Source of the DNA: Williamsia sp. DF01-3
GTDB lineage: Bacteria > Actinomycetota > Actinomycetes > Mycobacteriales > Mycobacteriaceae
DNA length: 64,000 nt
Direction of reading: 5' to 3'
Assembly: GCF_023051145.1 (NCBI RefSeq)
Contig: NZ_JALKFS010000005.1
Span: 4,481,733-4,545,732, forward strand
Part shown: one piece after another, positions 6,744 through 63,533 of the stretch
Layout: every line of letters begins with the position of its first letter
Numbering within the stretch: position 1 is the stretch's first letter
Notes under the pieces: model-generated
Told to the model about the DNA's origin: nothing
The model's input: the letters and a program-made list of their open reading frames with translations, nothing else
Database searches by the model: none
Program-made: the position numbers and the translations under genes

Positions 6744-6786
6744 TTGCTCACCTCCCCTTCTCGCATCCGCATGGTGGTCATCTCGT

Positions 6787-9215: not shown

Positions 9216-9219
9216 CGGT

Positions 9220-10077: not shown

Positions 10078-10090
10078 TTCCGAAGTCCTC

Positions 10091-44926: not shown

Positions 44927-45523
44927 TCAGCAGCCGCGTTGTGTGAGGGCGCGAATCCATCCGGCCGTCTGATAGATCCAGCCCGTCACGTGATCGACGA
45001 GGGACAGATGTTCCGGGTAGTCGGTCATCATGATGTCGCCCCCGAAGCATCGGCCGAGGATATAACGGGCACGGGATATGTGCGCTTTGGTGGTGACGAC
45101 GATGATGCTCTTCCAGCCTCGCTGCTCAGCCAATGTGCGGATTTCCTGAGCCTCCCCGCGAGTGGTCCATGGGTCGGGTAAGAAACACGTCAGCTCAACC
45201 GACGTCGGGGTCGCGCAGATTCGGCGCAGCCGGGCATCGTCGGCACCCACCGAATTCGATATCACCACCTCGGGCGCCAGCCCACGCTCGGCGAGCTCGA
45301 TCCCGTACTCGAACCGCTTGTACGGTGTGCCGCCGAGAACGACGACGGCGTCCGCTCGCGTAAGCGGCTCGGCGATCGCCGGATTCACGTACAGGGTGTT
45401 GATCACTGTGGACATCGCGAGCACAACGATGACGGCGAGTGCCACCAGCGTCGCCACCCGCAGGCGCATGCTTGCCCGCAGTCGGTGAAGAGGTCGATGA
45501 GGGGCAGTGCCGTTGCCGGTCAA
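44927..45523 (-). CDS. DUF218 (YdcF/ElyC/SanA) membrane protein
   Basis: 198 aa. One N-terminal membrane helix at about 21-46, then a DUF218 domain starting with ADAVVVLGGTPYKRFEYGIELAERG and including VVTTKAHISRARYIL. DUF218 proteins are linked to envelope polymer and undecaprenyl-phosphate metabolism. It starts as the preceding beta-helix gene ends (4-base overlap) and is followed after 7 bases by the condensation-domain gene. Confidence 0.87.
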   Translation of the reverse strand: MTGNGTAPHRPLHRLRASMRLRVATLVALAVIVVLAMSTVINTLYVNPAIAEPLTRADAVVVLGGTPYKRFEYGIELAERGLAPEVVISNSVGADDARLRRICATPTSVELTCFLPDPWTTRGEAQEIRTLAEQRGWKSIIVVTTKAHISRARYILGRCFGGDIMMTDYPEHLSLVDHVTGWIYQTAGWIRALTQRGC

Positions 45524-46935: not shown

Positions 46936-48623
46936 CTCATCGTTTCCGGTTCTGCCCGTTCGAGGATCGTGCTGCGGATGACCGATCGTACGGTTCGGTG
47001 ATAAGCCGTGTGGTCGCCGATTCCGGTGGTCACTATCCGGGGCGGGGGTCCACTCCGTTTCAGCCGTGCCAATCCTTCGGGGCCGCGTTGTGACCCGAAC
47101 CAGTCATGGTCGTGCGGTGACAGGATCACAGTGGTCGAGACGCCTTGCTGCACCAGTGGGCGCAACAGCACCTCGGGAACCTGGGTGATGCCCCGCACGC
47201 CCAGCAGACGCCACATCCAGTACGGAAGATGACGCTGCAGCATGGCTTTCACCCTGGCGCGCGGGGTCTTCTGCCATTCGGGGTCGCTTCGAGGTACCCC
47301 AAGGTCGTCTGGTTCGATCTCACCGGTCATCGCGCTCTTTCGGCGCCACGACCACGCGATCGAATTGATGAGGACGGCCGAGCCGGCGCCGATGGCACGG
47401 GCCACGTAGGCGGCGTACCACGAACCGGAGCACACTCCGGCGACCGTGAGAGTTCGTGGATCGGTAGCGGCCAGTCGGCCGATCTCCACCGACTCGTTGA
47501 TCGCCTCCTCGGTGTAGATCCCGAGCAGGTCGGCCCCCGGCTTGCCGGATTCGCCGGCACCGGTCCGGTCCCATCTCAACGCCTGCCCGCCTGCGGCAGC
47601 GATAGCGCGGCCCAAGTCCACCCATTCCCGGTTGGGACCGATGTGTGTGTCGTTCGCCGTGGAGAAGAACACCACCGTCTTCTCGGGCAGGACGCCGGCG
47701 TCGCCGGGCCGCGATCGGATGGCGAACGCATCGTTCTCGCCCAGGAATTCGATCGTCTCGATGACGGGATGGCCACCCGACTCCGTCGGACCGAACGTGG
47801 CCGTTGTGCGGATGACGGGGTCTGCCACGCGGGAGTCGCTGCCGAAGACTCCGTCGATCCAGCTCGCTATGGTAGCGACCGTCTGTTCGGGCACACGGAC
47901 GAGGAAACTCGACGGCTGGGTGAAGTCCGCCAAACCCTCGGCATGCAGGTGGGTCACGTTGTCCCGCGAGCCCATCGCCGCCACTCGCCGGTCGGCCTCG
48001 GGCCGCGAGACGACAAGCCAGCTGCCGACATGCCCGGAGTCCCCGCGGATGTCCAGGGCGCTGAACTCCTTCGCGGCGGCAGTCGACATACTCGCGCCGA
48101 TCATCTCGACCACGTCTTGATCCGGACTGGTGTCATCACTGCCGACGGTGAGGCGGTACAGACTCTGTTGTTCACGGATGAAAGCGCGCCCCCGGCCCAC
48201 CGGGTCCCAGTAGACGACATTATGGATCGAGTCGATTTCCCCGACAACGCTGTCGAGTATCAGGGTGCCGGCGCGCAAACCGACAGCGGTGATCTCCTCG
48301 ACACCACAGCCGCGGATGTAATCGACTGCGGTCGAGATGCTCTGCTTCCATCGCGCGACCGTGTCGCCGCGGACCTGTGCGTCGGCCGAATCCCCTACGC
48401 CCAGATAGTCGAACCGCAGCGTCAGGATGCGCCGGGAGGCCAATTCGTCGGCCAGCAACCGCAAGCCCCTGATGGTGTCCATGTGTTCCTTGGCGACCGA
48501 CCCGCAGATCACCACTGCGCCGCGGACACGATGGTCGGCGGGCATGTGCACGGCACCGAACATCGGGCTGTCATCGAGACCGAAATATGTCGGGAGCTCG
48601 ACCGTCGTCACAGCTCCGTTCAT
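46932..48623 (-). CDS. Tandem alpha/beta hydrolase domain protein
   Basis: 563 aa with two alpha/beta hydrolase domains. The first (about 1-265) has the nucleophile elbow GLRAG at 115-119, with Arg where Ser is normal. The second (about 290-563) has GVCSG at 396-400, so a Cys sits at the nucleophile position. Both patterns recall the paired exosortase-A-associated hydrolases of Gram-negatives, one GLR-type and one GxCxG-type, here fused; I give that from memory. No exosortase is in the window. Its ATG overlaps the wzz stop by four bases. Confidence 0.75.
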   Translation of the reverse strand: MNGAVTTVELPTYFGLDDSPMFGAVHMPADHRVRGAVVICGSVAKEHMDTIRGLRLLADELASRRILTLRFDYLGVGDSADAQVRGDTVARWKQSISTAVDYIRGCGVEEITAVGLRAGTLILDSVVGEIDSIHNVVYWDPVGRGRAFIREQQSLYRLTVGSDDTSPDQDVVEMIGASMSTAAAKEFSALDIRGDSGHVGSWLVVSRPEADRRVAAMGSRDNVTHLHAEGLADFTQPSSFLVRVPEQTVATIASWIDGVFGSDSRVADPVIRTTATFGPTESGGHPVIETIEFLGENDAFAIRSRPGDAGVLPEKTVVFFSTANDTHIGPNREWVDLGRAIAAAGGQALRWDRTGAGESGKPGADLLGIYTEEAINESVEIGRLAATDPRTLTVAGVCSGSWYAAYVARAIGAGSAVLINSIAWSWRRKSAMTGEIEPDDLGVPRSDPEWQKTPRARVKAMLQRHLPYWMWRLLGVRGITQVPEVLLRPLVQQGVSTTVILSPHDHDWFGSQRGPEGLARLKRSGPPPRIVTTGIGDHTAYHRTVRSVIRSTILERAEPETMR

Positions 48624-50019
48624 CGCCGATGCCTCTCGCCGCCGCGATTCGCCATTCCGCCGGGGCGTTCGCCGTCTGGCGCCGAGATGATGGGATAGGC
48701 AGGTGCACTTGCGGTTGCGGTTCCACGCCCGCCGCGGGCTCCCGATGGTGTGTTGCGTGAGAATCTCCCACGCAACGAATCCGGTGTCCTCTGCCTTCGA
48801 ACGGGAAGTGCGACGACCCCGTTCGCAGCTGCAATCAGGTCAGCGGTGTTTGCGACGACGGATCTCTCATCGGCTACCGCGAGCGGTATCGCTATCACCG
48901 CGACAACCGGATGCGCTGCGATGGTGACGATCTCTGGTGACTGCGCGAGGTCGCCTGCGTGGACGAAGACCAGAACGGCAGAGTTCTCGAGTTCGCCAAG
49001 CAGCGCGCCGAAAGCGTCAGAGGCCAGCAGATCGGCTGTGGTGCCGGACAGGTCGCCCCCCGGGAGTACGACGAGGCCACCGTCCTGCTCCTGCAGGCAT
49101 TCTGCGACGCCCACCCTGCCCCAGAGGATGTCGGCCAGTCCGGGTCCACGAATTCGACTGCCGGCCACGGCCTCCGAACGGGCATCGACCACAACGACAC
49201 GCTGCCCGGTGTTCATCAAAGCTGTTGCGAGCGCACCGGCGATGGACCCGGTGTCCACAGCGAGTCCGGTCAGAAGCACGGTTCGAGGGCCACCTTCGGC
49301 GCGAATCATGGTCAGCAGCTTGGTTCGCAACAACCGCACACCGTTGTTCGTGGGCCGCTCGGCATCGACCGGACCCGCCACGGGAACGTCGAGGGCGCGC
49401 ATCAGATCTGCGGGTGTGTCGATGGTTCGCTTGGCGCGATCCCGGACGAGGGCGATGACGGTTCCGACCACCAGGCCGGCGATGAGCCCGAGGATGATCA
49501 TGAGCAATGAACTGCGCCCACCGGCAGTGCCCTCGGACGGCGGATCGACCACGGACAGACTCGCGCCCGGGGTGCCTCCCCGGGCACCGACTCCAAACGG
49601 CGTACGACCGCCTGCAATTGGTCGTCCACGGCCCCGTTGAGTTCTCGGGCCTGCGCCGCGGAATCGCCGGTCGTCGTGATGTTCAGCAATACGGTGCCGG
49701 GCGGATACTGCACGGTGATGCGGCCGGCCACATCGCCTGTCGTCTCGTCCAGGTTGAGCTGATCGATGACGCCCTGGGTGACGGCCTGGCCGGTGGCCAA
49801 CGACGCATACGACACGAGCCTCTGCTGGGCAGCCTGGCCGGCCTGCAGTGGGTCGCTCCCGTTCTGATCGGCGATGGCGACGAACAGCTGACTCGTCGAG
49901 GTGTACTGGACCTCTTCGGTGGCGGCGTACGCGCCGCCGAGAAGTGCACCTACCAGCGTCGCGATCACCACGATCGCCCATCGTCTCCGTACGACCTGCA
50001 CGTAATCGTTCACACCCAT
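48620..50019 (-). pseudogene. Wzz-like chain-length determinant with pseudo-kinase domain, frameshifted
   Basis: The first part (start ATG 50019) gives the Wzz N-terminus: membrane helix at about 14-33 and periplasmic coil to PGTVLLNITTTGDSAAQARE. The frame then breaks at 49578-49581 (GGGG on the coding strand; one G short), and the rest reads in another frame: TPGASLSVVDPPS, a second helix, and a cytoplasmic P-loop-like domain. That domain has lost the Walker A lysine (TGLAVDTGSIAGA). With one base restored the protein would be about 466 aa. Wzz proteins set chain length of Wzy-polymerised glycans. I read the shift as a sequencing error. Confidence 0.82.
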
Positions 50020-51419
50020 GACAATTCCCTGCCCCTCATCGTCTGTCCCCCGACGTCCGAATCATCTGTCCCGAATCGCTTTCGCCATTCGACGACCACG
50101 GTGTACAGCACCCAGGCCACGACGGCGTATTGCAAGCTCTTGCCCAATGTCTCGCTGATCCCCAGGGCGCCACGCTCGAAGAGAGTGGGCACTGCCACGA
50201 GACTGATCCCGACCGTGATCAGCACGAGGTATCGCGATTGCAGCAGTCTCGCGACGCCGACTGCCACCGCCAGCACAAAGATGCTCTCCAGCAGGACCCC
50301 GGTATATCCGCCAAGTATCAAACCCTCGTTGATGTGTCCTTCGGCCAGGGACACACTCACGTTCCGCATGTCCACCGACGACCCCCGAACCTGCTGCGCC
50401 CATTGCGTGCCCGACTGAAACTTCTCTACCCCCAGCTGGGTCGGCACCAGGTTGGTGAACATGGTTCTGAGCGCGAACACCGGGTCGATCCAGCCACGAC
50501 CGTTCATGTAGAAGACATCGGTCGAGGCTGCGAACAGATCGAATCTGCCGATGATGCTCAGGAGCGGGCGAACTGGCTCAGGATAATTCGATTCCACCAT
50601 CGCCGATGCGATCTGATCGGCTGAACTCACCTTGAACGACTGCAACCATCCAAAAGCGACGCCGACGCCGACGGCGCCTGCGGCCACGGTGATCAACCGC
50701 CGTCTGGTGAAACCGTCGAGCGCGAACCGGAGCGCGACCGCCAGCGCGGCACCGAGCATGGGCGTCTTGGATTCGGCGAGAATGCCCCAGACCAGCTCGC
50801 CGGCCAGCAAGACACAGAGCACAACGGAGGTCAATCCGCGGCGCGTGGAACGGAAGTAGATGATCAGACCGAGCGCTCCGAGGCTGCCCATTCCGGCAAC
50901 GACGTCGAGGTAGGGGTTCGAACTCGTGACGTCGCCGGCCTCACCCACCGAGCCGGTTGCAACCGAGGCCAGCCGGCCGAGAAGACCCAGGGCGTACGCG
51001 ACCGCGAAGGTGGGGACGATGTGTGGGTTCGACCGCCAGTCCCGTGGATGTGCCGTCGGGAGGCGTCCCCGTCGTACCGTCCACAGCGCGTAGATCGCCA
51101 CCACCAGAACGTAGATCCACAAACCGACGGCAACCGGATGCAACACGTGCGCAATCGCGTACGGGTAGCCCATCTGAGCGATCCGGGGATCGGCGATGCT
51201 GTCGGCGAACTGAGGGGCTGGTTGCACCTGCAGCAGGACGATGGGGCGCAGCAAGAACGACAGCGCCCAGTAGGCGGCCTGTGCCAGCAACAGGACTCGA
51301 ACCAGGATGGGTACAAAACACGCAATCGCCGTCAGCGCCAGCAACGCGACGGTGATCGAAAGCAGCTGGCTGTAGGGCGAAAGTGGTTCAACAAACATCG
51401 GCCACGATCTCCCGGGCAC
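50010..51419 (-). CDS. Wzy-like O-antigen/polysaccharide polymerase
   Basis: 469 aa with about 10 to 12 membrane helices, periplasmic loops containing Arg and a C-terminal cytoplasmic tail ending MRGRELSWV. The layout, together with the flippase and Wzz genes, identifies a Wzy-type polymerase; Wzy sequences are too variable for stronger proof. An in-frame ATG at 51398 would shorten the N-terminus by seven residues. It overlaps the upstream glycosyltransferase stop and the downstream wzz start. Confidence 0.78.
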   Translation of the reverse strand: MPGRSWPMFVEPLSPYSQLLSITVALLALTAIACFVPILVRVLLLAQAAYWALSFLLRPIVLLQVQPAPQFADSIADPRIAQMGYPYAIAHVLHPVAVGLWIYVLVVAIYALWTVRRGRLPTAHPRDWRSNPHIVPTFAVAYALGLLGRLASVATGSVGEAGDVTSSNPYLDVVAGMGSLGALGLIIYFRSTRRGLTSVVLCVLLAGELVWGILAESKTPMLGAALAVALRFALDGFTRRRLITVAAGAVGVGVAFGWLQSFKVSSADQIASAMVESNYPEPVRPLLSIIGRFDLFAASTDVFYMNGRGWIDPVFALRTMFTNLVPTQLGVEKFQSGTQWAQQVRGSSVDMRNVSVSLAEGHINEGLILGGYTGVLLESIFVLAVAVGVARLLQSRYLVLITVGISLVAVPTLFERGALGISETLGKSLQYAVVAWVLYTVVVEWRKRFGTDDSDVGGQTMRGRELSWV

Positions 51420-52392
51420 GGTCGACGTAGCGGTGACCGCCGTTCACGATCCTGCGGTACCCCGCTGCGGCGATGGCCGCAGCCTCGTCCGGGTTGCTCC
51501 GGCATCGCGCGAGCTGCTCCTGCATCTCGTCCTCGTCGGAGAAGAGCAGAGCCTCTGTCCCGTCGTCGAGCAGTTCGGAGTGTTCTGGTGTGCGCTCGCC
51601 CACGAACAGTCCACCGGCAGCCGGGACCTCGAACGTCCGGCACGTATGTGTGTCACGGTTGTCGGAGTTGAGCAGGACGAGGTTTGCTGTGACTGGCGCG
51701 ATCGCGATGGACAGATCCTGCCCGTACTGAGCCCCCGCGACATTGGCCGCCGACCCCAGAACCACGGGATCACGCTGCCACCCCGGTCCTGCCAGATACA
51801 TCTCGTCGCGATACCGGCGGGCCAGCCGATGCAGCATCGGCGCGCGATCGGGCCGCCGCGACCCGATGAAACCAACCAGGTAGCGGCGGGTGGTCCGCGC
51901 CGCGCACGGTTGATGCCATGCCGGGTCGTAGGCGCTCAGGACGAACGTGACGTGCTTGGCGCCCCTGGCGACGATCTCGGGCACGTTGTGTCGTTTGGTG
52001 GTCACCACGGCGTCCCACCCGCCTTCGGCGGCTAGGTACTCCGGCGACGTGTTGTACGGGTTGGACACATCGTCGGCGCTGTAGTGGACCCGGATCGATG
52101 CAGGCACCTGCAGCAGTCGTTCCTGGTCCAGGTGAATGGTCTTGTAGCAGAACAACATGTCCGGCTTGATGGCCTCGACCGCCGCGTCGATCTGTTCGTG
52201 GACGGCGGTGGTCGTCCAGGGCGCTCGCCGGCCGCTGACCTTGGCGTAACCCCACGGCAGACTGAGCCGGGTGGGTAACGTGACCTTGCTCGAATCGATC
52301 ACGTAGACCTCGTGCCCTGCCTGGCGGAACCCATCGGCCAGTGAGCGAGCGTTGCTGCCGAGCCAGTCGTCGCCGACAAAAAGTATTCTCAT
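51388..52392 (-). CDS. CgeB-like glycosyltransferase
   Basis: 334 aa, GT-B-like. N-terminus MRILFVGDDWLGSNARSLADGFRQAGHEV, a conserved VHYSADDVSNPYNTSPEY segment and a C-terminal donor-binding area CRTFEVPAAGGLFVGERTPEH typical of the CgeB/DUF3880-linked transferases. It probably adds one sugar of the repeat unit. Its start overlaps the flippase stop by four bases. Confidence 0.8.
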   Translation of the reverse strand: MRILFVGDDWLGSNARSLADGFRQAGHEVYVIDSSKVTLPTRLSLPWGYAKVSGRRAPWTTTAVHEQIDAAVEAIKPDMLFCYKTIHLDQERLLQVPASIRVHYSADDVSNPYNTSPEYLAAEGGWDAVVTTKRHNVPEIVARGAKHVTFVLSAYDPAWHQPCAARTTRRYLVGFIGSRRPDRAPMLHRLARRYRDEMYLAGPGWQRDPVVLGSAANVAGAQYGQDLSIAIAPVTANLVLLNSDNRDTHTCRTFEVPAAGGLFVGERTPEHSELLDDGTEALLFSDEDEMQEQLARCRSNPDEAAAIAAAGYRRIVNGGHRYVDRAREIVADVC

Positions 52393-53726
52393 GCTCCACT
52401 GGCCCCCAGGTGCGCGACTTCGGTTGTCACCGGCGCCTCGTCGGTCTGCTTCAACGAAGGATGAACGCGCATGAGGTGACGAACCCGGAACAGATAGAAC
52501 ACGGCGACCACACTCTCCGCGACGAGCATCCCGGTGACCATCGCCCAGACGGAGTGATTGTTCAACGCCACCGCGAGAAACACCAGGATGCAGGCGGTAC
52601 CGATCATCGACCCGAAGAGAACGCCCCGCGTGTCCCGGCAGATGGGCAGCACTGCGGTGGTGACGAACGATGCCACCGCCGTACCCGGGAGGATGAACGC
52701 CTGCAATTGCATGACGGCAACAGCCTTTTCGAACTCTTGGCCGAAGATGAGGGGGATGGCGATCGGTGCGATGAGCGCGGCTGCGATGGAGGCCACGACA
52801 GCGATCGCGAAGACCGTCACGATTCCCCGCCGGATCGAAGTCCAGAAGTCGCTGTCGTGCTTGCGGGCGGCGAGCCGAGGCAACAAACTGAAACCGATCG
52901 CGTCGAGCGTCGACGAAATCGCCTGGATCGGACGGTCACTGGCCGAGAAGATGCCCATCGAACGCGTGGACAGCGCCATCGAGAAGAGTGTCGCGACACC
53001 TTGCTCATAGGTGTTCTCGAGCAGGCGCGACGTCAGGACCGGAGCACCCAGCCGGAGCATCGGACCGATCCCCTTTGGCCTACGCGGCATCCCGAAAGCT
53101 CGAACCGTCACGATCCAGGTCCACGCGACCGGTATCGCGCTCGAGGCGACCAGACAGAGCATCGCGGCCTCGGGGGTGCGGACGTGCGGCAGTATCGACA
53201 CCAACAGGGCCAGGTAGACGATGCGTCCCGACATCTCGATGATCACCAGACGCCCGAACTTGGCCTGCCCGAGGAGGATCCAGCCCTCTCCCATCGATGA
53301 GATGCCGCCGCACAGGAGACCGAGCATGATCATCTGCAGGTGGATGTGGTTGTCGAAGATGAATACCGCCGCGGCAGCGACGGCGATGACGCCGAGAATT
53401 CCTAGACGGATGGCGAGGTAGTTGCTTCGCATCGTCCGTACGTCTTCGTCCCGCAATTCCGCTGCGAGGAACGTGGTGATTCCGAGGTCGATCACCAGAG
53501 CGCCCAAGAAGTAGGCAGACATGCTGATGGCAAGTAGGCCGACGCCCTCGGTACCGAGGATCCGGGCGATCAGCGGCAGTGTCACAAGGGTGATCAGGTA
53601 CTGCCCGTATTTGCCGAACGAGACCAGTCCGACGTCGCGGACCAGCATCACCTTGGCCATGATCGCCGATTTACGTCCGCCGGTTTCTCGGGTTCCACGA
53701 TCACGTCCGGCCGAATGCTTACCCAC
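52389..53726 (-). CDS. Wzx-type polysaccharide flippase
   Basis: 445 aa with 12 to 14 predicted membrane helices and no large soluble domain, as in the MATE/Wzx oligosaccharide flippase superfamily. It would move lipid-linked repeat units across the membrane. The first 20 residues are basic and hydrophilic (MGKHSAGRDRGTRETGGRK), so a later start, at MAKVMLVRDVGLVSFGKY, is possible. It overlaps the end of the upstream glycosyltransferase gene by eight bases. Confidence 0.85.
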   Translation of the reverse strand: MGKHSAGRDRGTRETGGRKSAIMAKVMLVRDVGLVSFGKYGQYLITLVTLPLIARILGTEGVGLLAISMSAYFLGALVIDLGITTFLAAELRDEDVRTMRSNYLAIRLGILGVIAVAAAAVFIFDNHIHLQMIMLGLLCGGISSMGEGWILLGQAKFGRLVIIEMSGRIVYLALLVSILPHVRTPEAAMLCLVASSAIPVAWTWIVTVRAFGMPRRPKGIGPMLRLGAPVLTSRLLENTYEQGVATLFSMALSTRSMGIFSASDRPIQAISSTLDAIGFSLLPRLAARKHDSDFWTSIRRGIVTVFAIAVVASIAAALIAPIAIPLIFGQEFEKAVAVMQLQAFILPGTAVASFVTTAVLPICRDTRGVLFGSMIGTACILVFLAVALNNHSVWAMVTGMLVAESVVAVFYLFRVRHLMRVHPSLKQTDEAPVTTEVAHLGASGA

Positions 53727-54909
53727 GTCCGCGGCCTCCCACGCCGTCGCGGTCGGCTACACCGAGGAATTGCGCGACGATCGCAGCGGTCTCTTCGATG
53801 GTGAACCGCGTGGAAGTGGCTCGCGCGCGCTCGGCCATCTCGCTTCGGCGGTCTGAATCTTCGATGAGCGAATCGAGCGCGGCGGCAAAGCTTGTCGTGT
53901 CTGTGGGGTCCACCAGAAGTCCGTCCACACCGTCGGAGACGATCTCGAGCGGGCCACCGGAGTTCGCGGCGATCACCGCACAGCCGGCGGCCATCGCCTC
54001 GACGATCACCTGTCCGAACGGTTCGGTGGTCCGCGAACAGTGAACGGCGATATCGGCGTCGGCCAGAATCGAGGTCGGGTCGGACACATGGCCGGCGAAG
54101 GTCACCCGGTCCTGCAGGCCCAATTCACGAGCGAGCTCGGTGAGTTCGGTGCCGAAGTCCTCACCGAAATGCGCACCGCCGACGAAGGTCACGGACGGCC
54201 GGAATGCCGAGACGGCTAGCGCGCGCAGCAAAAGATCCTGACCTTTCCATCGCTCGAGGCGCCCGACCATCGCGATCTCGACCTCGGCAGGTGGGCGCGG
54301 CTCCCTGGACGGCACGACGACCGGCTCAATGCCCGGATAGGCCACCACTGCCCGCTTGCGCGAGGTGAGTAATGACTTCAGCGTAGACGTGCTGTTGGCG
54401 ATGTATCCAGCGCTGACCACCCAGCCCAGTACCCGGATGATCGACGCGAGTGCTGTGCCGAAGTACTCCGAGGAGATCCGGTCGTGCACGTGCCAGATGA
54501 GGGGCAGGCGCGCTCGGCGAGCCGCTATGGTTCCCATGAGCAGCGCCTTTGTGGATTCGGCCACCAGGATCGTGCTCCCTGACTGCTTCGCGAAACCACC
54601 CAACGTCCATCCGGTGTGCACCATGTGCCACACGCCGATGGGCAGTGCGGTGACGGAACCGCCGATTCGGACCCGGGAGCTGTCGAACGGTCCGGAGACC
54701 ACGTTCACCGGTATGGCCCTGCGGTGCAGTTCTTCCACCATCGGCCCTGTGTCCGTGAACAGCACAGACGTCGCCACGCCCTTGGCTTCGAGGGCCGTGG
54801 CCAATCGAACCGTCGCGAGTTCCGCTCCGGATGCGGCCGCAGTGTGAGAGATGAAGGTCACCAGGTCGTCGCCACGCACGGACCGTCTTCGCCGGATGGA
54901 CTGCCTCAT
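53719..54909 (-). CDS. Glycosyltransferase family 4
   Basis: 396 aa from ATG 54909 (MRQSIRRRRSV), which overlaps the preceding stop as ATGA; an in-frame extension to 54987 is therefore discounted. The N-terminal SHTAAASGAELATVRLATAL and the C-terminal EPFGQVIVEAMAAGCAVIAANSGGPLEIVSDGVDGLL (with the Glu pair EX7E) are those of GT4. The long basic N-terminus may contact the membrane. It probably adds a sugar to the lipid-linked unit. Confidence 0.88.
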   Translation of the reverse strand: MRQSIRRRRSVRGDDLVTFISHTAAASGAELATVRLATALEAKGVATSVLFTDTGPMVEELHRRAIPVNVVSGPFDSSRVRIGGSVTALPIGVWHMVHTGWTLGGFAKQSGSTILVAESTKALLMGTIAARRARLPLIWHVHDRISSEYFGTALASIIRVLGWVVSAGYIANSTSTLKSLLTSRKRAVVAYPGIEPVVVPSREPRPPAEVEIAMVGRLERWKGQDLLLRALAVSAFRPSVTFVGGAHFGEDFGTELTELARELGLQDRVTFAGHVSDPTSILADADIAVHCSRTTEPFGQVIVEAMAAGCAVIAANSGGPLEIVSDGVDGLLVDPTDTTSFAAALDSLIEDSDRRSEMAERARATSTRFTIEETAAIVAQFLGVADRDGVGGRGRG

Positions 54910-55994
54910 GGCGCGATCACCGAGTAGGCCAGCCGGTGACGTTCGACACACCGTTCCCACGTGAACTCCTCGGCGCGAGCCCGGCATTCACTCGGCGATG
55001 GGCGTTCACCCATCAGCGCCCGCACGATGCGGTCGCCGAGCGCGTCGGCGTCCTCGGGTGCCAAGATCAGACTGTCGTCGAAACCGCGGACGGAGTCGGG
55101 CAATCCGCCGACGTCGGTGACGATCGGCGCTCGTCCCGCCGCCATCGATTCCAGCGCGATCAGTCCGAATCCCTCCAGCGCCCGCGTGGGGACCACCGTG
55201 ATCGACGCGCGCCGATACGCCTGTGCGAGTTCGGCATCGGACGCGTTGCCGACGAATGTGACGGACGCGGGGTGCCCACCGGCCTCGGCCTGCGCCCGCA
55301 GTGCCGCCTCCTCACTGCCGGTGCCGATGATCACCAACTCGGCGTCATCGATCTGGGTTCGCACCGAATCCCACGCTTGCAGAAGCACATCAATACCCAT
55401 CCGACGCTCCAGCCGGCGTACGCACAGCACCACAGGCGGCCCGTCACGGGAACCCGGGACGCTCGCGGTCGATCCCGGATCAGCGAATCGGGCGAGGTCG
55501 ACCCCCGGCGGGATCACGGCGATCCTGTCGAGATCAACCCGGTAGTCCTCGACGAGGACATCACGGAAATGGTCGGACAGCACGACAAAAAGGTCGCTGC
55601 GGCCGTACCGGCCGCGCTCGAATAAGTATTTTGCGCGTGCGGCACCGGCCGACTCCCCACTCATCGCGCTTTCGGCAGACCATGGGCCATGAAAGTGGGT
55701 GACCAGTCGGGTCCCGTTGCGCCGGCCGACCGCAGGGGGCCCATAGAGCGCGAAGTGCCGGTCGAGGATCGCACCGCGCTCCGGTAGTGGGGTCAGTGAG
55801 GCACGCACCCTGGCAGCGGTTCCTCCCACCGGGTCGCCCCAGCTGGATCCACCGGCCGGAGGATCACCGAATGCGTAGCCCGACACATCGATTCCGTCGG
55901 CCACCGTGAGCGCCTCGAACAGGTCTGTGAAATATCGGTTGAGGCCACCACGGGCCGTTCCGAACCATTCGGAACCGGTCATGTGGATCCGCAT
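54906..55994 (-). CDS. Glycosyltransferase family 4
   Basis: 362 aa. GT-B N-terminus MRIHMTGSEWFGTARGGLNRYF, the VVLCVRRLERRMGIDVLLQAW region and the donor-site EGFGLIALESMAAGRAPIVTDVGGLP (EX7E). It starts six bases after the aminoacyl-ligase gene and overlaps the next transferase, so the glycosyltransferases are cotranscribed with the ligase. Confidence 0.9.
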   Translation of the reverse strand: MRIHMTGSEWFGTARGGLNRYFTDLFEALTVADGIDVSGYAFGDPPAGGSSWGDPVGGTAARVRASLTPLPERGAILDRHFALYGPPAVGRRNGTRLVTHFHGPWSAESAMSGESAGAARAKYLFERGRYGRSDLFVVLSDHFRDVLVEDYRVDLDRIAVIPPGVDLARFADPGSTASVPGSRDGPPVVLCVRRLERRMGIDVLLQAWDSVRTQIDDAELVIIGTGSEEAALRAQAEAGGHPASVTFVGNASDAELAQAYRRASITVVPTRALEGFGLIALESMAAGRAPIVTDVGGLPDSVRGFDDSLILAPEDADALGDRIVRALMGERPSPSECRARAEEFTWERCVERHRLAYSVIAP

Positions 55995-56000
55995 GGACGC

Positions 56001-56972
56001 CTATTCGCTCAGGTGCGCGCGAATAGGCGCAGGCCACCCCGAGATGTCGAGTCCGAATGTACGCAGCATCGCCAGCGCGATCCGTTCCATGCCGAAGCCG
56101 ACGCACGCGCTGTGTGCGACCTCCCCTGTCGCTGTCATGATGCCGAACGTCTCACCGAAATGGTCCTGGTGGCAGTTGCATGAAACAACTGCGGTTCCGC
56201 CGTCGAGGTCGCCGTAAAGCCGCACCACCAGTTCGGTTTTCAGGTTCTCTTCGCGCTGATTGGCGGCGAGCATCTTGCCGACGCGTCCGAAGAACGGGTC
56301 GTTGGCTGCCTCGGCGTGCGCCGTCAGACCCAGGTCGGCGAGAACTTGGAGCCCGCGGTCGATCCATAGGTCCCGATGATCGCGTGCACTTTGTGCTGAA
56401 CCGACGCGGACGAACTCGTGCATACGGAAAGCCTGCATCCGCGCTGGGTCTATGGCGGGTTCGTGCCGAAAGCAGTAGCCATACACGTCGAGGAGAACCT
56501 CGTCGGCGGGCAGGGTTCCGGTGAGCGTGGCATAGCTGGGGTGACATGCGGCCGACACCAGCATCGTTCCCGCCGATGCAAGGTGGTGGTCCCAGTCGAT
56601 TCCGGCCTCGCGGTCGGCAAGCAGTGCCCGATGGGCTTTGTTGTCGCCGTCGAATGTGGAAATCGCGCCGGTGAGGTTGGGAAATGACGCAATGTAGTCG
56701 GTCTTTTCGAATGCTGTTCTCGGAAAGACCGGTGGAAAACGCATTTTCACGGGGCGGTTGCCGTGCGCGGCGGCTCCTGCTTTGAGTACCAGTCGATCGA
56801 CAGCGTCGATGATCTGCTCGAAATCGGCGCCCCGGCCATAGAGCCCGTCGATGCCGGTCGGTATGAGCAGGCCGGCCGATACGAGCGCGTCCCGAAATGC
56901 TGCGCGCTCACGGTCGAGGTCTGACCCCTCGCCCACCGAATCTGCCGTCAGGGACTGCGGCGACGCGCTCAT
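56001..56972 (-). CDS. Amino acid:[carrier protein] ligase (class II aaRS-like)
   Basis: 323 aa from ATG 56972 (MSASPQSLTADSV), one base after the upstream stop; a 12-residue extension to 57008 is weaker. The catalytic core of a class II aminoacyl-tRNA synthetase is present: motif 2 FRHE at 168-171 with RMQAFRMHE at 178-186, and motif 3 GFGMER at 292-297. Cys143 (AACHPSY), Glu171 and Cys290 (SACVGFG) fit the zinc site of atypical seryl-tRNA synthetases. There is no N-terminal tRNA-binding arm. Homologues from Bradyrhizobium and Agrobacterium load amino acids such as glycine or alanine on a carrier protein. The carrier protein gene lies nearby at 58332. Which amino acid it selects is unknown. 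Confidence 0.9.
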   Translation of the reverse strand: MSASPQSLTADSVGEGSDLDRERAAFRDALVSAGLLIPTGIDGLYGRGADFEQIIDAVDRLVLKAGAAAHGNRPVKMRFPPVFPRTAFEKTDYIASFPNLTGAISTFDGDNKAHRALLADREAGIDWDHHLASAGTMLVSAACHPSYATLTGTLPADEVLLDVYGYCFRHEPAIDPARMQAFRMHEFVRVGSAQSARDHRDLWIDRGLQVLADLGLTAHAEAANDPFFGRVGKMLAANQREENLKTELVVRLYGDLDGGTAVVSCNCHQDHFGETFGIMTATGEVAHSACVGFGMERIALAMLRTFGLDISGWPAPIRAHLSE

Positions 56973-56973
56973 C

Positions 56974-58140
56974 TCAGATACCTCTCTGAGCCAGCACCAG
57001 GTGCGCATTGTTGGCCCGTATTCGATCGTTGGAGACCATCAGCTGCGGACCGAACGAGTCTCTGAGCAGCCGGCCCATCGACGCCGGGTGATCTTCGCGG
57101 TAGCCGCTGATCCCGCATAGCGCCAGTGCACCTGCGACCACGTCGACCACGGCAACGGACGAATCGAGCTTCAGGTTGTTCAGCGCGAATGTGAATCCGA
57201 CAGTTGGCTCGGGCTCCCCTGTTGCCAGGAAGGTCTCGTACCGGGCCACTTCTTGTGTGACAGACGATGCGAACCTCTGATGAATGACCATGAGGTCGGC
57301 AAGTTTGGCGGCCTGAGGCGGCGTGGAATTGCCTGCCTTGCGGGCAGCGGCACGAACTTGTTTGCGAGCCTTTGCAATGGCTGCGTCGGCGATACCGAGC
57401 CACACCGAAGCCCACAGGGTATGGGAGGTGGGCAACATGGTGTGCGCGGAGATCGTCGCGTATTCAGCAGGAACCACGTTGGTGGCCGCGGTGCGGGTAC
57501 GCAACAGAAACCCAGGACTACAGGTGCCCCGAAACCCGAGGACATCCCAGGTCCCGACTTTCTCGAGCTCGGTATCCGATTGGGGGCACACCACCAGCAC
57601 CTGGTCGGTGGGCGCACTGTCCGGTGAACGTCGCGCAGTCGTGCAGATGTAGTCCGCGTACTGGCCGTAGGAGATGACCGGTGCATTCTTTTCGAGAATG
57701 ATGTGGTCACCGTCGGCGACCACCGCGCAACTAGACGTCCGGACATCACCGCCGGTCGAGATCTCGGTGGTGGCAGAAGCCAACAAGGATTCTTCATTCG
57801 CAATTTTGCGTGTCAAATCGCCGAGGTCTCCGCCGGACCCGTGCCAGCGCAGACTGAGCGCTTGGGTGTGATGCATCGCGAAAACCATTCCGGCTGAACT
57901 ACATGCCGATCCCAGAGCACGGGCGATGGCTGCCAGCTCGGTGATCGAGGCGGACTTGCCGCCGAGATTGTCCGGAAGTGAGCAGGACAGCAGCCCGGCC
58001 GAACGCATCGCATCCACGGCTTCGGAAGGAAACCGGGAGTTCCGGTCGACGTCGTCAGCGGCGGCTGCAGCGGCGGCAACTGCGGCCGATGCATCAGGGC
58101 GCGCACTATCGGAAACGATTGGGGCGGAGGTGGTCGTCAC
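56974..58140 (-). CDS. Acyl-CoA dehydrogenase-family protein, probably acting on carrier-bound aminoacyl
   Basis: 388 aa with the three-part acyl-CoA dehydrogenase fold: N-terminal helices (SEAVDAMRSAGLLSCSLPDNLGG), the middle beta domain (ATTEISTGGDVRT, where FAD binds) and a C-terminal helical domain. It is the first gene of the leftward operon and its stop is one base from the ligase ATG. Known relatives oxidise prolyl or other aminoacyl groups while bound to a carrier protein. By analogy it may desaturate or oxidise the amino acid loaded by the ligase (inference). The usual catalytic Glu is not obvious, so chemistry is open. Confidence 0.82.
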   Translation of the reverse strand: MTTTSAPIVSDSARPDASAAVAAAAAAADDVDRNSRFPSEAVDAMRSAGLLSCSLPDNLGGKSASITELAAIARALGSACSSAGMVFAMHHTQALSLRWHGSGGDLGDLTRKIANEESLLASATTEISTGGDVRTSSCAVVADGDHIILEKNAPVISYGQYADYICTTARRSPDSAPTDQVLVVCPQSDTELEKVGTWDVLGFRGTCSPGFLLRTRTAATNVVPAEYATISAHTMLPTSHTLWASVWLGIADAAIAKARKQVRAAARKAGNSTPPQAAKLADLMVIHQRFASSVTQEVARYETFLATGEPEPTVGFTFALNNLKLDSSVAVVDVVAGALALCGISGYREDHPASMGRLLRDSFGPQLMVSNDRIRANNAHLVLAQRGI

Positions 58141-58331
58141 GGATTCGTCCTAAGTCGGCTTGCGCAAGTGTTCGTTAGCCGGGGTTCCCGTGGCACACTA
58201 CACTAACGTGAAACTGTTGAGCGGGGTCGCATGGATTCACCCGAAAGAGTAACCCTGACCACAGGCCGCTCGCTTGTCATCACACATGACAGTCGCCAGA
58301 CTCCATCCGCCAGACGTAAGGACGCTCTCGT
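58141..58331. promoter_or_regulatory. Divergent promoter region of the glycan/aminoacyl locus
   Basis: 191 bases between the divergent first genes, lower in GC than its surroundings around ACACTACACTAACGTGAAAC (58195-58214). It must hold promoters for both operons. I see no convincing perfect palindrome. TAGCC and CTAACG half-sites recur. Confidence 0.5.
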
Positions 58332-58577
58332 ATGCAATCCCGGATCCGCGAAATACTTGCTTCCCACGGCAAAATGGCAACGGATCCGACTTCCGTCGAA
58401 TCCTCAGCCGACCTCTATGAGCTCGGCCTGACGTCCCACGCGAGTGTGAACGTGATGCTCGCACTCGAGGACGAGTTCGACATCGAGTTTCCCGACGAGG
58501 ATTTGAAGAAGGCGACGTTTTCGTCCGTGGACAACATCGAGGCCGTTGTTTCCCGACTGTCCGGTGAATCAGTGTGA
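58332..58577 (+). CDS. Acyl/aminoacyl carrier protein
   Basis: 81 aa, standard carrier-protein size. The 4'-phosphopantetheine site is Ser35 in LGLTSHASVNVM; the helix-2 region ALEDEFDIEFPDEDL is acidic, as expected. The LTSHAS form rather than the common DSL is that seen in carrier proteins partnered with aa:CP ligases. It is divergent from the ACAD-ligase operon by 190 bases and overlaps the DUF1839 start (ATG/GTG within the stop). The modifying PPTase may be the gene at 63099. Confidence 0.93.
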   Translation: MQSRIREILASHGKMATDPTSVESSADLYELGLTSHASVNVMLALEDEFDIEFPDEDLKKATFSSVDNIEAVVSRLSGESV

Positions 58578-59554
58578 GTTCCATCCCGAACGCTGATCTG
58601 CACTCGATATCCGCGCTCGACCCGCGTTCCTATCAACCGCATTTCAGCCATTCGACGGAAACCCGGATCTGGCGTGAGACCAATTGCTACGTCGATTTGT
58701 GGATCGAGACGTTGCACGCCCTGGGCCACGACCCGGTTGCTTCTTTCGCCTCAGCACTTTCCGCTGATCACGATGGCGAGCAGTGGACGTTTCTGAAGAT
58801 GGAACAGTCCGACCTACGCGTTCTGTACGGGCTCGAGGTCACCGAGGACACTGTATGGCGACCGATTCTCGACACCGTCGAGAGTGGCCCCGCACGAAAC
58901 CTCTTGCACACAGTCGAAGTGGACAGCTGGTGGCTCCCGGACACCGCGGGCACCGACTACCGCAGCAGTCACGTCAAGACCACCATCGTTCCTGCTCGCG
59001 TAGATCGTGATGCGCAGTCGATGGTCTATTTCCACAACGCCGGCCTGTTCGAGCTCGACGGGGACGACTTCGTCGGAATCTTCGGCTTGGGTGACCAGCC
59101 CGAAGCTCTGCTGCCGCCCTACGTCGAGCAGATCCGCTACTTTCCCGGCAGGGTGCAGCCCGATGCGCTCCTGACCGTCGTCCGCGAGCATCTCTCGCGT
59201 CGCGCCTCCGGCGATCCCATGGCGCGGCTTGCCGATTCGATCCGTGATGCGGTCACGTGGCTCCCCGAACGCGGACTCGAGACGTTTCACCAGTGGGCAT
59301 TCGCGACGTTGCGGCAATGCGGGGCATCCGCCGAACTCGCGGCCGATCTCGCGACACTCCTCGGCTCGGGACCGGCGCCCGCAGCGGCAGTGGCAGCTGA
59401 GCCCTTTCTCCAGGTTGCCCAGGGCGCCAAAGCTGTTCAGTTCAAACTGGCGAGGGCGGCTCGCGGCAGGAAGGTCGACGTCGACGCCGCGATGGCCGAG
59501 ATGTCGGAGTCGTGGGCGAAGGCACTGGACCTCGTTTCGGACGCGGTGGAGTAA
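58574..59554 (+). CDS. DUF1839 family protein
   Basis: 326 aa with a GTG start overlapping the carrier-protein stop by four bases. DUF1839 proteins have no known chemistry but are repeatedly found beside aa:CP ligases and carrier proteins. Visible conserved parts are the N-terminal ETNCYVDLWIETLHALGHDP with Cys, DGEQWTFLKMEQSDLRVLYGLEV, and a C-terminal helical region. It is probably a partner that binds or processes the loaded carrier. The last 60 residues are Ala-rich helices. Confidence 0.85.
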   Translation: MSSIPNADLHSISALDPRSYQPHFSHSTETRIWRETNCYVDLWIETLHALGHDPVASFASALSADHDGEQWTFLKMEQSDLRVLYGLEVTEDTVWRPILDTVESGPARNLLHTVEVDSWWLPDTAGTDYRSSHVKTTIVPARVDRDAQSMVYFHNAGLFELDGDDFVGIFGLGDQPEALLPPYVEQIRYFPGRVQPDALLTVVREHLSRRASGDPMARLADSIRDAVTWLPERGLETFHQWAFATLRQCGASAELAADLATLLGSGPAPAAAVAAEPFLQVAQGAKAVQFKLARAARGRKVDVDAAMAEMSESWAKALDLVSDAVE

Positions 59555-59556
59555 GG

Positions 59557-61994
59557 GTGCTCACCGACTGTCGGATGGTCGCAACAGCAGCGGACGAGTT
59601 CGATGACCCTGCAGCGATTCCGCAATCGAGGCATGGGACATCCATACCCAACGGCACGCTCGGAGTGGTCGCTCGGCAGGCCGGATGGGATGCCCTCCTG
59701 GCACCCCACGGCACGGACATCGACGATGCCGATTGGTGGATGTTCGCGTCTGTCAACGCGACTCGACCGCTTCGAATCCATTTTGCGGGGCTGACGTTCC
59801 CGGCGACCATTTTCGTCGATGGCCAACCCGTTGCCGAAGTGGAATCCATGTTCCTACCCGTCGATCTACCCGTGCCGGGGGTGAACACGAGATCGCCATC
59901 CGCTTCGGTTCACTGGCACGATGGCTCAAGAAGCGGCGGCCCCGCGGCCGCTGGCGCTCGAATCTCGTTGCCCAGCAAGGTATGCGCTGGGCACGAACCA
60001 CACTGATGGGTCGCTCTTCGGCGTATTCGGGCGCACCGGCACCGGTCGGGGTCTGGCGCCCTGTGCACGTAGTTGGTGAGATTGCGGTCGAAACTCTCGA
60101 CATCCATTGCGACGCGGCCGATGGCCGGGTACAGATCTCGGGGCGGTGCATCGGAGTCGACGGCGATCCGGCGGGCGGAGTCACCGTGGAAGTCCGCATC
60201 GACCGGGACGGCGCGGTTTTCGACTCCGACGAGTTCATGGTTGCCGCCGATGGAACCTTCGAGGGACACCTGACCGTAGATGAACCCGATCTGTGGTGGC
60301 CACGTGGCTACGGTGACCAACCCCTGTACGACGTCACCGTGATGGTGGGCACGGAGACCACCACGCGACGGGTCGGCTTTGGTTCGGTTCGGTCCTCATC
60401 GTCGTTCGGTGACGGTTTCACCCTGTCTTACAACGGAATCGAGATCTTCTGCCGCGGCGCTATATGGACACCGCCTGAGCCCGTGGCATTCCAAGCCGAA
60501 GCGTCCTCGATCCGCAACGTGCTGGCGGAACTCGCATCTGCGGGGGCAAACATGGTGCGCATCCCCGGCGGAACGGTGTACGAACAGGAAGAGTTCTTCG
60601 CGGCGTGCGCCGAATTCGGCATCCTGGTGTGGCAGGACGCGATGCTGGCGACGTTCGACCCTCCTGAGGAGCTGACGTCGATCATCGTCCGGGAGCTCGC
60701 GTCGACACTGGGAGCGGTAAGCGGCAATCCCGCGCTCGCGGTGGTCAGCGGCGGTAGCGAAACCGTGCAGCAACCAGAGATGCTCGGCTTGCCGGCGGAT
60801 TCCCGGCACTTGGATCTGATCGACACCCATCTCGCGGCGATCGCAGGGTCGCGTCAGGTTCCCTACGTACCATCGAGCCCTGCAGCACCCCCAGGGTCCG
60901 GCCAATTGGCGATTCGACCGGATACTGGTGTGGCGCATTGGTTCGGTGTCGGCGGATACATGCGGCCGGTGGACGACGTCCGCACCGCCGGAGTCCAATT
61001 CGCGGCGGAGACACTGGCTTTCTCGATCCCTCCGTCGGCAGGTGCCATAGAACGCCACTTCGGGTCGTCAGCCGTCGCGGGGCATCATCCGAGCTGGAAG
61101 TCGGGAGTTCCCCGCGACAAAAACGCGTCCTGGGACTTCGAGGATGTTCGAGATCACTACGTCCGCGAGATCTTTTGCGTCGACCCGCTGCAGCTCCGAC
61201 GTGTCGATCCCGACCGGTACCTGCAAATGGGGCGCGTCGCTGTCGCGGCCGCGATGACCGAGTGCTTCAGATACTGGAGACGCCGGGATTCGGGTTGTGG
61301 TGGAGGCCTGGTACTCGCTGCGAAAGACCTTGCCGCGGGCGCAGGTTGGGGTCTGATCGACGTGGACGGGGATGCCAAACTTCCCCTACTCGCTCTCGCC
61401 AGGTCATGGCAGCCGATCGCGGTGATGGTGTCCGATGCCGGACTGAGCGGTCTGCGCATCGACGTCGCCAACGACGCCCCCTCCCCCATCACCGGGCGTG
61501 CGTCGCTGACAGCGACCAATGCGGCCGGCCAGATCGTCGCCGAAGGCGCTGTCACGATCGAGGTGCCCGCCCACTCAGGCTCGACGCTCGGCGACCCCGA
61601 CCTCACCGGTGTGTTCCGAGACCTCACACATGCCTACAAGTTCGGCCCAGCGATGGCCCAGGCCGTGCAGGTGGAGATCACCGACGGCGCCGACCTACAT
61701 CGACGGGATGTTCTTGTGCTCCAACCCCATCAGGCGCCGGTGCGATGCACCCTGCGCGCCACTGCATCACAGGGACCTGACGGCAGGTGGGGACTCGACG
61801 TGACATCGGACGCCGCGCTGAGGTGGGTCGAGATCGACACACCGGGATGGCGTCCGGCCGACAACTACTTCCACCTCGCTGCCGGCCTGCCCTATCGGGT
61901 CGCAATCGAGGGCACCGGAAGTGACGTCCCTGCGGGCCGGGTGTCGTCCATCGACGCCACAACCACCACCACGATCACGGTGTCGCATGCGTGA
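59557..61994 (+). pseudogene. GH2 beta-mannosidase-like protein, frameshifted
   Basis: About 812 aa if one base is restored. From GTG 59557 the first frame gives the N-terminal jelly-roll sugar-binding domain (TRPLRIHFAGLTFPATIFVDGQPV); the shift occurs in the G run 59877-59881 and the next frame goes on from GEHEIAIRFGSL. The TIM barrel carries a possible acid/base Glu in SGGSETVQQ and a nucleophile-like Glu in FAAETLAFSIPP. The WCGNNE-type motif of true mannosidases is degenerate, so activity is uncertain. No signal peptide is seen, so it would act in the cytoplasm, perhaps trimming precursors. I believe the shift is a sequencing error. Confidence 0.7.
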
Positions 61995-63099
61995 CGAACC
62001 GCGTATTGCACTGGTGCACGAGAGGCTGACCGAGGTCGCCGGCTCCGAACATGTCGTGGAGCAATTGGCCACCGAGTGGCCGGACGCGACGCTGCACGTA
62101 CCCTTTGCGGATCCGGCGGCGGTGGCCCCGATCCTGCAGGGCAGGGTGCGTACCAGTCCACTGGACGGGGTCTACAGGGCTGCAGGCCGCAGGAGCTACG
62201 CCCCGTTGTTACCGTTCGTGCCCACCGTGCTGCGGCACACAGACTTCGGTGATGCCCAGGCCCTCATCATCTCGCACCACGCAATGGCGTTGTCTGCCGT
62301 CCACAGTGCTGGAGGGATTCCGAGCATCGCGTACGTGCACTCCCCGGCGCGGTGGGCATGGGACCCGGCAATGCGTGCCGGTGAGGCCTCGGGCATTGCC
62401 GGCAAATCCGCCTTGTCGGTACTCGCCGCCGTCGCCCGCAGGTCTGAATCCAGCGCGGCGCCGCAGATCACCACGGTGGTCGCGAACAGCACCGAGGTCT
62501 CTGCACGCATCAAGCGGTGGTGGAATCGCGATTCTGTGGTCGTGCATCCCCCCGTCGACACCGTTCGCTACTCGATGGACAGCTCCGTCGAGCGAGAGAA
62601 CTTCTTTCTGTTGGCAGGCAGGCTGGTTCCCTACAAGCGGCCGGAGATCGCGATCCTCGCAGCGAAAGCCGCGGGAGTGAAGCTCGTCGTCGCCGGAACC
62701 GGTCGACTCGCCGAAGAATGCCGGCGGATTGCTGGGCCTGAGACCACCTTCCTCGGGCGCGTCAGCGATGAGACGATGCTGCGGTTGCAACGAAGTGCCC
62801 GGGCGCTGATCATGCCCGGCGTCGAGGACTTCGGAATCGTTCCCGTGGAGGCCATGGGCTGCGGAACACCTGTCATCGCGGTCGACGAAGGTGGCGCGCT
62901 GGACACGGTCATTCCCGGCCTCAGCGGCCAATTGGTCCGCAATGCAGACGATCACGAGCTCGTCGCCGGATTAGCCGCGACCCTCGCGTCCTTCAATCCC
63001 TCCGGGTACGACCATCGCGCGATTTCCACGCACGCACAAACGTTCTCCCGGGCCGCTTTTCGCCGGTCCATGCGTGAACTGGTCGACAAAGTGATCTGA
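61987..63099 (+). CDS. Glycosyltransferase family 4
   Basis: 370 aa from ATG 61987 (MRDEPRIALVHERLTEVAG), overlapping the GH2 stop by eight bases. The IALVHERLTEVAGSEHV start and the donor-site segment EDFGIVPVEAMGCGTPVIAVDEGGALDTV (with EX7E) are clear GT4. It is the only transferase on the rightward operon and overlaps the next gene by one base. Confidence 0.9.
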   Translation: MRDEPRIALVHERLTEVAGSEHVVEQLATEWPDATLHVPFADPAAVAPILQGRVRTSPLDGVYRAAGRRSYAPLLPFVPTVLRHTDFGDAQALIISHHAMALSAVHSAGGIPSIAYVHSPARWAWDPAMRAGEASGIAGKSALSVLAAVARRSESSAAPQITTVVANSTEVSARIKRWWNRDSVVVHPPVDTVRYSMDSSVERENFFLLAGRLVPYKRPEIAILAAKAAGVKLVVAGTGRLAEECRRIAGPETTFLGRVSDETMLRLQRSARALIMPGVEDFGIVPVEAMGCGTPVIAVDEGGALDTVIPGLSGQLVRNADDHELVAGLAATLASFNPSGYDHRAISTHAQTFSRAAFRRSMRELVDKVI

Positions 63100-63533
63100 T
63101 GGACCCCAGTGCTCTGATGGACCTCCCCTCGAACTGCCGCACCGGATGCGATCTGGTCAGCCTCCACGACATCGACGAATCCGTGGCGTCGTTCGGCGAC
63201 CGGTTTCTCGCCAGGGTGTTCACGGATCGGGAACTCGCCTACTGCGCCGGTACGCAGCAGCGACAACGACTTGCCGCACGCTTTGCCGCCAAGGAGGCGA
63301 TCGTCAAGGCCCTGGCGCTGCCGGACATCGCGACGCCTCTGCGTGAAATCGAGGTCGTCAACGACCCGGCCGGCCCTCCTCGTGTAGTCCTGCACGGTTC
63401 TATCGCCACCGAGGCTCGGGCCCAGCACTGGTCATCGGTCTCGGTATCCCTGTCGCATACCGATTGTCACGCAATGGCGGTGGTGGTCGCGATGGTCACG
63501 GACAACGATGCATTCGAGCAGCAGCACGGGTAA
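63099..63533 (+). CDS. 4'-phosphopantetheinyl transferase, AcpS family
   Basis: 144 aa. AcpS features: GCDLVSL with Asp18 near the N-terminus, FAAKEAIVKAL with Glu66 and the KEA core, and SLSHTDCHAMAVV at the end. It transfers phosphopantetheine from CoA to the Ser of carrier proteins. Being in this operon, it is likely dedicated to the carrier protein at 58332. ATG overlaps the glycosyltransferase stop (ATGG region, one base). Confidence 0.88.
   Translation: MDPSALMDLPSNCRTGCDLVSLHDIDESVASFGDRFLARVFTDRELAYCAGTQQRQRLAARFAAKEAIVKALALPDIATPLREIEVVNDPAGPPRVVLHGSIATEARAQHWSSVSVSLSHTDCHAMAVVVAMVTDNDAFEQQHG

Follow-up and report, generated by a model that had tools for sequence, protein, structure and literature searches.

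The 64,000-nucleotide stretch of Williamsia sp. DF01-3 DNA analysed here (contig NZ_JALKFS010000005.1, hereafter the window) comes from a genome of 5.6 Mb and carries, at 56001-59554, four adjacent genes for an amino acid:[carrier protein] ligase, an acyl-CoA-dehydrogenase-like flavoprotein, a carrier protein and a protein of the DUF1839 family. All four are intact at the coordinates given in an earlier note made from the sequence alone, and the identities proposed there agree with the family models NF005479, PF02771, NF005480 and PF08893, respectively. The ligase (56001..56972) and the flavoprotein (56974..58140) lie on the minus strand, and the carrier protein (58332..58577) and DUF1839 (58574..59554) on the plus strand; the arrangement is divergent and the module therefore occupies two transcripts. 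No inverted repeat of eight or more bases, such as would suggest a shared operator, was found in the divergent spacer (58130-58340).

The ligase is a class II enzyme resembling seryl-tRNA synthetase (SerRS), and scores 429 bits against NCBIfam NF005479 (amino acid--[acyl-carrier-protein] ligase, cut-off 357). Its start is probably the ATG at 56972 rather than position 57008, the start of the listed open reading frame (ORF). The nearest solved structures are those of Bradyrhizobium Bll0957 (PDB 4h2w, E 2e-68; 3mey, E 9e-67), with a match of 234 bits to the catalytic core over residues 49-331. The 323-aa ligase aligns to an archaeal SerRS in the C-terminal catalytic part alone (chain residues 306-509 of 527) and thus lacks the tRNA-binding arm, as the earlier note had it; loading of an amino acid on the carrier protein rather than on tRNA is predicted. 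Residues C143, E186 and C290, presumably zinc ligands, are invariant among 22 sequences. The carrier protein (NF005480, 98.8 bits, cut-off 72) has its attachment residue, Ser35, in the motif LTSHAS, a site already described as fitting; the serine is present in 113/113 homologues, with threonine before it in 108 and histidine after it in 103.

One TGA codon was flagged in seven matches among the Tsukamurella-type ligases and was initially suggestive of selenocysteine. This was rejected: among the fetched loci, L064 and L076 alone have an internal stop within the aligned part, in both cases close to the C-terminus, which points to proteins that end earlier and not to recoding.

The DUF1839 protein (PF08893, 354.5 bits) possesses four residues, C38, T136, T137 and H154, that are invariant among 18 sequences. 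Its AlphaFold2 model has a pLDDT of 90.8, and a fold search with this model gave no close match other than CcbD, CtaG and the AziU2-U3 complex. A phmmer search against solved structures gave no match to DUF1839, and a profile search with E-values up to 10 listed five designed coiled-coil proteins alone. In lincosamide synthesis, the catalytic cysteine of CcbD passes a carrier-bound amino acid to the amine of an amino sugar. DUF1839 is accordingly named here as a putative Cys-dependent amide synthase, predicted to act on the acyl group of a carrier protein, and because of its modelled fold, transfer to a sugar amine appears the best-supported use of the module.

With the flavoprotein, the Acyl-CoA_dh_N domain scores above its cut-off and the middle domain below. 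Its Val369 sits opposite the glutamate of IYEGT in 3pfd, and this position is valine in 60 and isoleucine in 19 of 79 sequences. As the usual catalytic glutamate is absent, ordinary alpha,beta-dehydrogenation is less likely, though there may be another catalytic base position; glycine, moreover, has no beta carbon. The weak solved relatives of the flavoprotein are mostly acyl-CoA dehydrogenases, and include DnmZ, an amino-sugar N-oxygenase.

Three further genes belong to the module, making it larger than the four genes of the earlier note. A GH2 beta-mannosidase-like glycosidase (59557..61994, plus strand, PF00703) follows DUF1839; its nearest solved structure is a beta-mannosidase (PDB 5n6u) and its presumed catalytic glutamates are retained (E359 in 63/64 sequences, E442 in 64/64). 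An AcpS-type 4'-phosphopantetheinyl transferase is encoded at 63099..63533 (plus strand, PF01648, 62 bits). There is also a two-domain alpha/beta hydrolase (46932..48623, minus strand), in which the nucleophile position is an arginine in domain 1 (Arg117, 65/75 sequences) and a cysteine in domain 2 (Cys398, 74/75, one gap). Its model (pLDDT 91.1) has a strand-helix elbow at both places. It scores below cut-off against TIGR03101 (57.7 bits) and TIGR03100 (43 bits), and a fold search gave general lipases and esterases with one domain per match and nothing on an acceptor. With a thiol as its nucleophile, the enzyme would seem more likely to transfer acyl groups than to hydrolyse.

To follow the module across genomes, 146 fetched loci (L044-L189) were searched with profiles derived from them, alongside 20 control stretches taken from 20 of the same genomes at offsets chosen by hand. 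Distinct ligases were present in 133 of the 146, and 29 of these were excluded for a flank shorter than 7.5 kb or a ligase profile score below 200, leaving 104; among the excluded are L091-L095, which score below 200 and are without most of the module. The loci from named records are the best 80 of at least 574 confirmed matches and lean towards the window's kind, while those of the genome sample, 48 of the 69 family matches besides the window's own, plus phylum matches, were hand-picked for spread. A carrier protein lies near the ligase in 101/104 loci, the alpha/beta hydrolase in 73, AcpS in 54, DUF1839 in 60 and GH2 in 59. The flavoprotein is present in 80, in all of which it is on the same strand as the ligase and at most 300 bp from it. 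None of the module profiles matched the control stretches at E 1e-5. By content, 58 loci have flavoprotein, DUF1839 and GH2, 21 the flavoprotein alone, 23 none of the three, and two are odd.

The module recurs from Actinobacteria to plasmids of Rhizobium and Azospirillum. The gene order carrier protein, flavoprotein, ligase, DUF1839 is common to five plasmid records from Rhizobium, Azospirillum and Mycetohabitans, and in three of the five an annotated GH2/beta-mannosidase and an alpha/beta hydrolase come next. Other genes come after DUF1839 on the R. leguminosarum and R. binae plasmids, with a GH2 profile match in R. leguminosarum. A Tsukamurella plasmid has the ligase, carrier protein, phosphopantetheinyl transferase, glycosyltransferases and a polysaccharide exporter without flavoprotein, DUF1839 or GH2. 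It was observed that such a minimal module, composed of ligase, carrier protein, AcpS, glycosyltransferases, Wzx and alpha/beta hydrolase and lacking the same three genes, is found in Tsukamurella-type genomes and this plasmid (L058, L067, L072, L075, L085, L097-L100 and L186).

Among 201 genomes of the family, the ligase was found in 67 (66 above cut-off) and DUF1839 in 47. All 47 DUF1839 genomes carry the ligase, on the same contig and at most 14.5 kb away, the distance being within 100 bp in 20 and within 5 kb in 39. The second sample, 385 genomes from the class to which an Azospirillum genome belongs, has DUF1839 in five and the ligase in ten above cut-off (19 at E 0.001); all five DUF1839 genomes are among these ten, and there DUF1839 adjoins the ligase. 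Fisher values for the association are 3e-30 (family) and 4e-9 (class), both of which overstate independence owing to kinship among the genomes. DUF1839 is thus strictly dependent on the ligase in both samples. At the level of the phylum the ligase is patchy, with 10/396 genomes, four of them above cut-off.

The window module is embedded among genes for a surface glycan. On the minus strand, two GT4 glycosyltransferases follow the ligase, at 54906..55994 (PF00534, PF13439; 6 bp after the ligase gene) and 53719..54987 (PF00534), and are followed by a Wzx-type flippase (52389..53726, PF13440, PF01943), a glycosyltransferase (51388..52392, PF13524), a putative Wzy polymerase of 469 aa (50010..51419) and a Wzz chain-length regulator (48620..50019, PF02706 on the N-terminal piece), so that this run reads from the flavoprotein through the ligase to the hydrolase. 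The Wzy assignment comes from position and length, the protein having no Pfam match; it has a syntenic homologue with 68% identity in L050, a locus of the same genus. The plus-strand run, divergent from it, holds the carrier protein, DUF1839, GH2, a GT4 glycosyltransferase (61987..63099, PF00534; start set by eye, the listed ORF beginning at 61921) and AcpS. With a priming sugar transferase (PF02397) just past the window end (L218:1186-2589, equal to window 64186-65589), the region has the flippase, chain-length regulator, priming transferase and glycosyltransferases of a Wzx/Wzy-dependent locus. The module genes had been placed on the same transcripts as the glycan genes, and they are indeed packed among glycosyltransferases, Wzx and the putative Wzy, but the module itself is split over two divergent transcripts.

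This context is shared by part of the ligase loci. Because the glycosyltransferase and Wz (GT/Wz) profiles derive from the window and from loci syntenic with it, other glycan genes are undercounted. At least two GT/Wz genes of the window's kinds lie within about 10 kb in 38/104 loci and in 29/48 of the genome-sample loci, compared to 0/20 control stretches, three of which have one glycosyltransferase match. Synteny with most of the window's set was found in L050, L069 and L146; in the other six fetched loci of the same genus (L044-L049), no match to Wzx lies within the stretch. The earlier note had proposed a search for co-occurrence of ligase, DUF1839 and wzx/wzy genes. DUF1839 never occurs without the ligase in the two genome samples. 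A Wzx homologue is near the ligase in 19/104 loci.

From the observed gene identities, the four intact genes, the active-site residues and the co-occurrence, and from the predicted fold of DUF1839, we infer every reaction of the following scheme together with its amino acid, acceptor and polysaccharide destination. AcpS would place phosphopantetheine on Ser35 of the carrier protein, on which the SerRS-like ligase would load, with ATP, a small amino acid (glycine, alanine or serine, by analogy with characterised relatives). The next step is probably an oxidation, by the flavoprotein, of the loaded residue or of its amine. Cys38 of DUF1839 would then accept the acyl group and, in the manner of CcbD, transfer it to an amino sugar at the amine. 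The product may afterwards be trimmed or passed on by GH2 and by the alpha/beta hydrolase with its cysteine. In the Williamsia genome, the sugar so modified probably enters a repeat unit that is exported and polymerised by the glycosyltransferases, Wzx and Wzy. We give a probability of about 0.5 to this reading, namely that an aminoacyl thioester is made and joined to a sugar amine, the sugar probably being built into the repeat unit of an exported polysaccharide. A bolder version, which we put forward tentatively and consider doubtful as a whole, is that DUF1839 is the first of a family of amide synthases that depend on a carrier protein and have a permuted Cys-Thr-His triad. Fed by a ligase derived from an aminoacyl-tRNA synthetase (aaRS) and by an oxidising flavoprotein, they would couple an oxidised amino acid to an amino sugar bound for a Wzx/Wzy surface polysaccharide. 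This would be a way of aminoacylating bacterial glycans that is driven by an aaRS-type enzyme and needs no tRNA, spread across phyla and partly plasmid-borne.

A number of observations weigh against our main reading. In 66/104 loci there is at most one GT/Wz gene of the window's kinds nearby, and among proteobacterial loci 1/18 has at least two, the other 17 having fewer. The further neighbours of 16 sampled loci include no recurrent family, the maxima being 3/63 and 2/57 ORFs (63/74 and 57/65 ORFs used under a longest-ORF rule, with the 25 commonest of 61 and 70 families listed); the listed families include single sugar-related ones, these being an epimerase, a phosphomannomutase, a GH1 and one glycosyltransferase. 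No amino-sugar aminotransferase was detected among 59 ORFs scanned, a subset of those in the window and about 30 kb beyond. In 23/104 loci, 17 of them beside GT/Wz genes, the ligase is without flavoprotein, DUF1839 and GH2 nearby, and therefore DUF1839 is not always the acceptor enzyme. Its sequence has no detected match to CcbD, CtaG or AziU2-U3, its triad is permuted (Cys-Thr/Ser-His as against the Cys-His-Glu/Asp order of the CcbD/CtaG type), and no experimental test or biochemistry of DUF1839 was found in the literature searched, which was mostly without subscription papers. The product of CcbD is a small molecule, as are those of the CtaG and AziU pathways. In the window, the GH2 gene has one reading-frame change near 59875-59880 and the Wzz gene one near 49579, both relative to open counterparts in L050, and these may be sequencing errors or real decay. 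Since only one proteobacterial locus has at least two GT/Wz genes of these kinds and no further neighbour recurs, the module is best described as a portable cassette which is found in glycan loci of some Actinobacteria. Decoration of a surface polysaccharide, as suggested in the earlier note, fits the window locus and is not established for the module in general.

The same points bear on the possibility, by no means negligible though we would not favour it, that the cassette makes a soluble amino-acid-sugar conjugate, such as a small glycoside or thiol-like metabolite, by the same chemistry, its position in glycan loci being incidental in some Actinobacteria. The cassettes on Rhizobium and Azospirillum plasmids have no annotated Wzx, Wzy or glycosyltransferase genes, many chromosomal loci in Rhodococcus and Proteobacteria have no GT/Wz profile match, and CcbD itself is a small-molecule enzyme. 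However, the window genes are packed among Wzx, Wzz and glycosyltransferase genes, the difference between genome-sample loci and controls argues for a glycan link, and the Mycetohabitans record has an ArnT-type transferase and an LTA-synthase-family gene some 8-10 kb away. It is unlikely that the Cys398 hydrolase is the main aminoacyl transferase to the glycan, with DUF1839 and GH2 handling a side product. Its cysteine is all but invariant, it is present in 36/44 loci without DUF1839, and it has weak similarity to exosortase-A-system hydrolases, which occur in an exopolysaccharide context; yet it was not found within about 10 kb in 23/60 DUF1839 loci, and the fold search yields general esterases and lipases as single domains. 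Very improbable is a role in feeding a nonribosomal peptide pathway, which according to PMC2922099 was the original proposal for the ligase family in 2010. A gene for a nonribosomal peptide synthetase (NRPS) of 3997 aa (L218:7862-19855) does lie about 7 kb past the window end, and the window has a stand-alone condensation-domain protein at 43120-44919, but the six plasmid regions inspected have no annotated NRPS gene, and AMP-binding enzymes account for 2/57 neighbour ORFs, with no condensation domain among the 25 families listed. Attachment to a sugar amine, with the polysaccharide as its probable destination in this genome, remains our preferred reading.

The condensation-domain protein (PF00668, 599 aa) lies in the glycan region and could be another carrier-protein-dependent acyltransferase; homologues with 30-36% identity are found in several other ligase loci, mostly of the Tsukamurella type. 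It is flanked by two pectate-lyase-fold proteins (PF12708) at 41564-42994 and 45520-46935. Past the window end there are large NRPS genes, an ABC transporter and a DUF4012 protein (L218:4274-19855, L219:1211-10622), and also a second Wzz/kinase, an epimerase and a polysaccharide pyruvyl transferase. At the other end of the window, 1884-12046 holds a Mce-type operon with six MlaD/Mce proteins, two MlaE permeases and one ABC ATPase.

Ever since the amino acid:[carrier protein] ligases were discovered in 2010, what they are used for has been an open question, which can now be tested directly. If the preferred reading is true, it would also explain a gene cassette found in many environmental and plant-associated bacteria.

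The earlier note knew of no described system with this set, a statement that does not stand, as both the set and a near-identical reading are in Iyer and Aravind (2010; PMC2922099). Their note in proof names a ligase with its acyl carrier protein, a redox enzyme, a conserved ORF, a glycosidase and genes for liposaccharide, and predicts amide ligation to a cell-surface amino sugar. All of these components, with envelope-glycan genes, are in the window and the predicted reaction is the same, so that the locus is a clear member of the SerRS/carrier-protein sugar-aminoacylation system predicted there. From the conserved gene order in the plasmid loci we infer that Atu2574, the conserved ORF of 2010, is DUF1839. 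In the window the genes differ in being split over two divergent runs within a Wzx/Wzy locus. As far as accessible, the note in proof gives no fold for the ORF and no counts, and names neither the alpha/beta hydrolase nor AcpS, and the literature searched held no test of the role proposed. PMC10318531 (2023) links DUF1839 to glycans from gene context and also gives the C-(T/S)-H order. New here are the CcbD-type fold and the counts, the addition of the hydrolase and of AcpS, the division of the module into classes and the recognition of stand-alone cassettes; the CcbD-like fold of DUF1839, its dependence on the ligase in the two genome samples and a locus whose product is probably an isolable polysaccharide sharpen the 2010 prediction to a decidable question.

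The Bradyrhizobium and Agrobacterium ligases (Bll0957; 4h2w, 3mey) have the NCBIfam equivalog, the catalytic core and the carrier-protein family in common with the window ligase. CcbD/LmbD, CtaG and AziU2-U3 resemble DUF1839 in the overall fold of the model, in a conserved cysteine at a helix start and in a carrier protein in the cluster, and differ from it in sequence, in residue order and in belonging to small-molecule pathways. D-alanylation of teichoic acids by DltA/DltC is similar in that a carrier protein bears the activated amino acid meant for a surface polymer, but there the AMP-ligase does not have an aaRS fold, and the amino acid is transferred as an ester outside the cell via a membrane protein.

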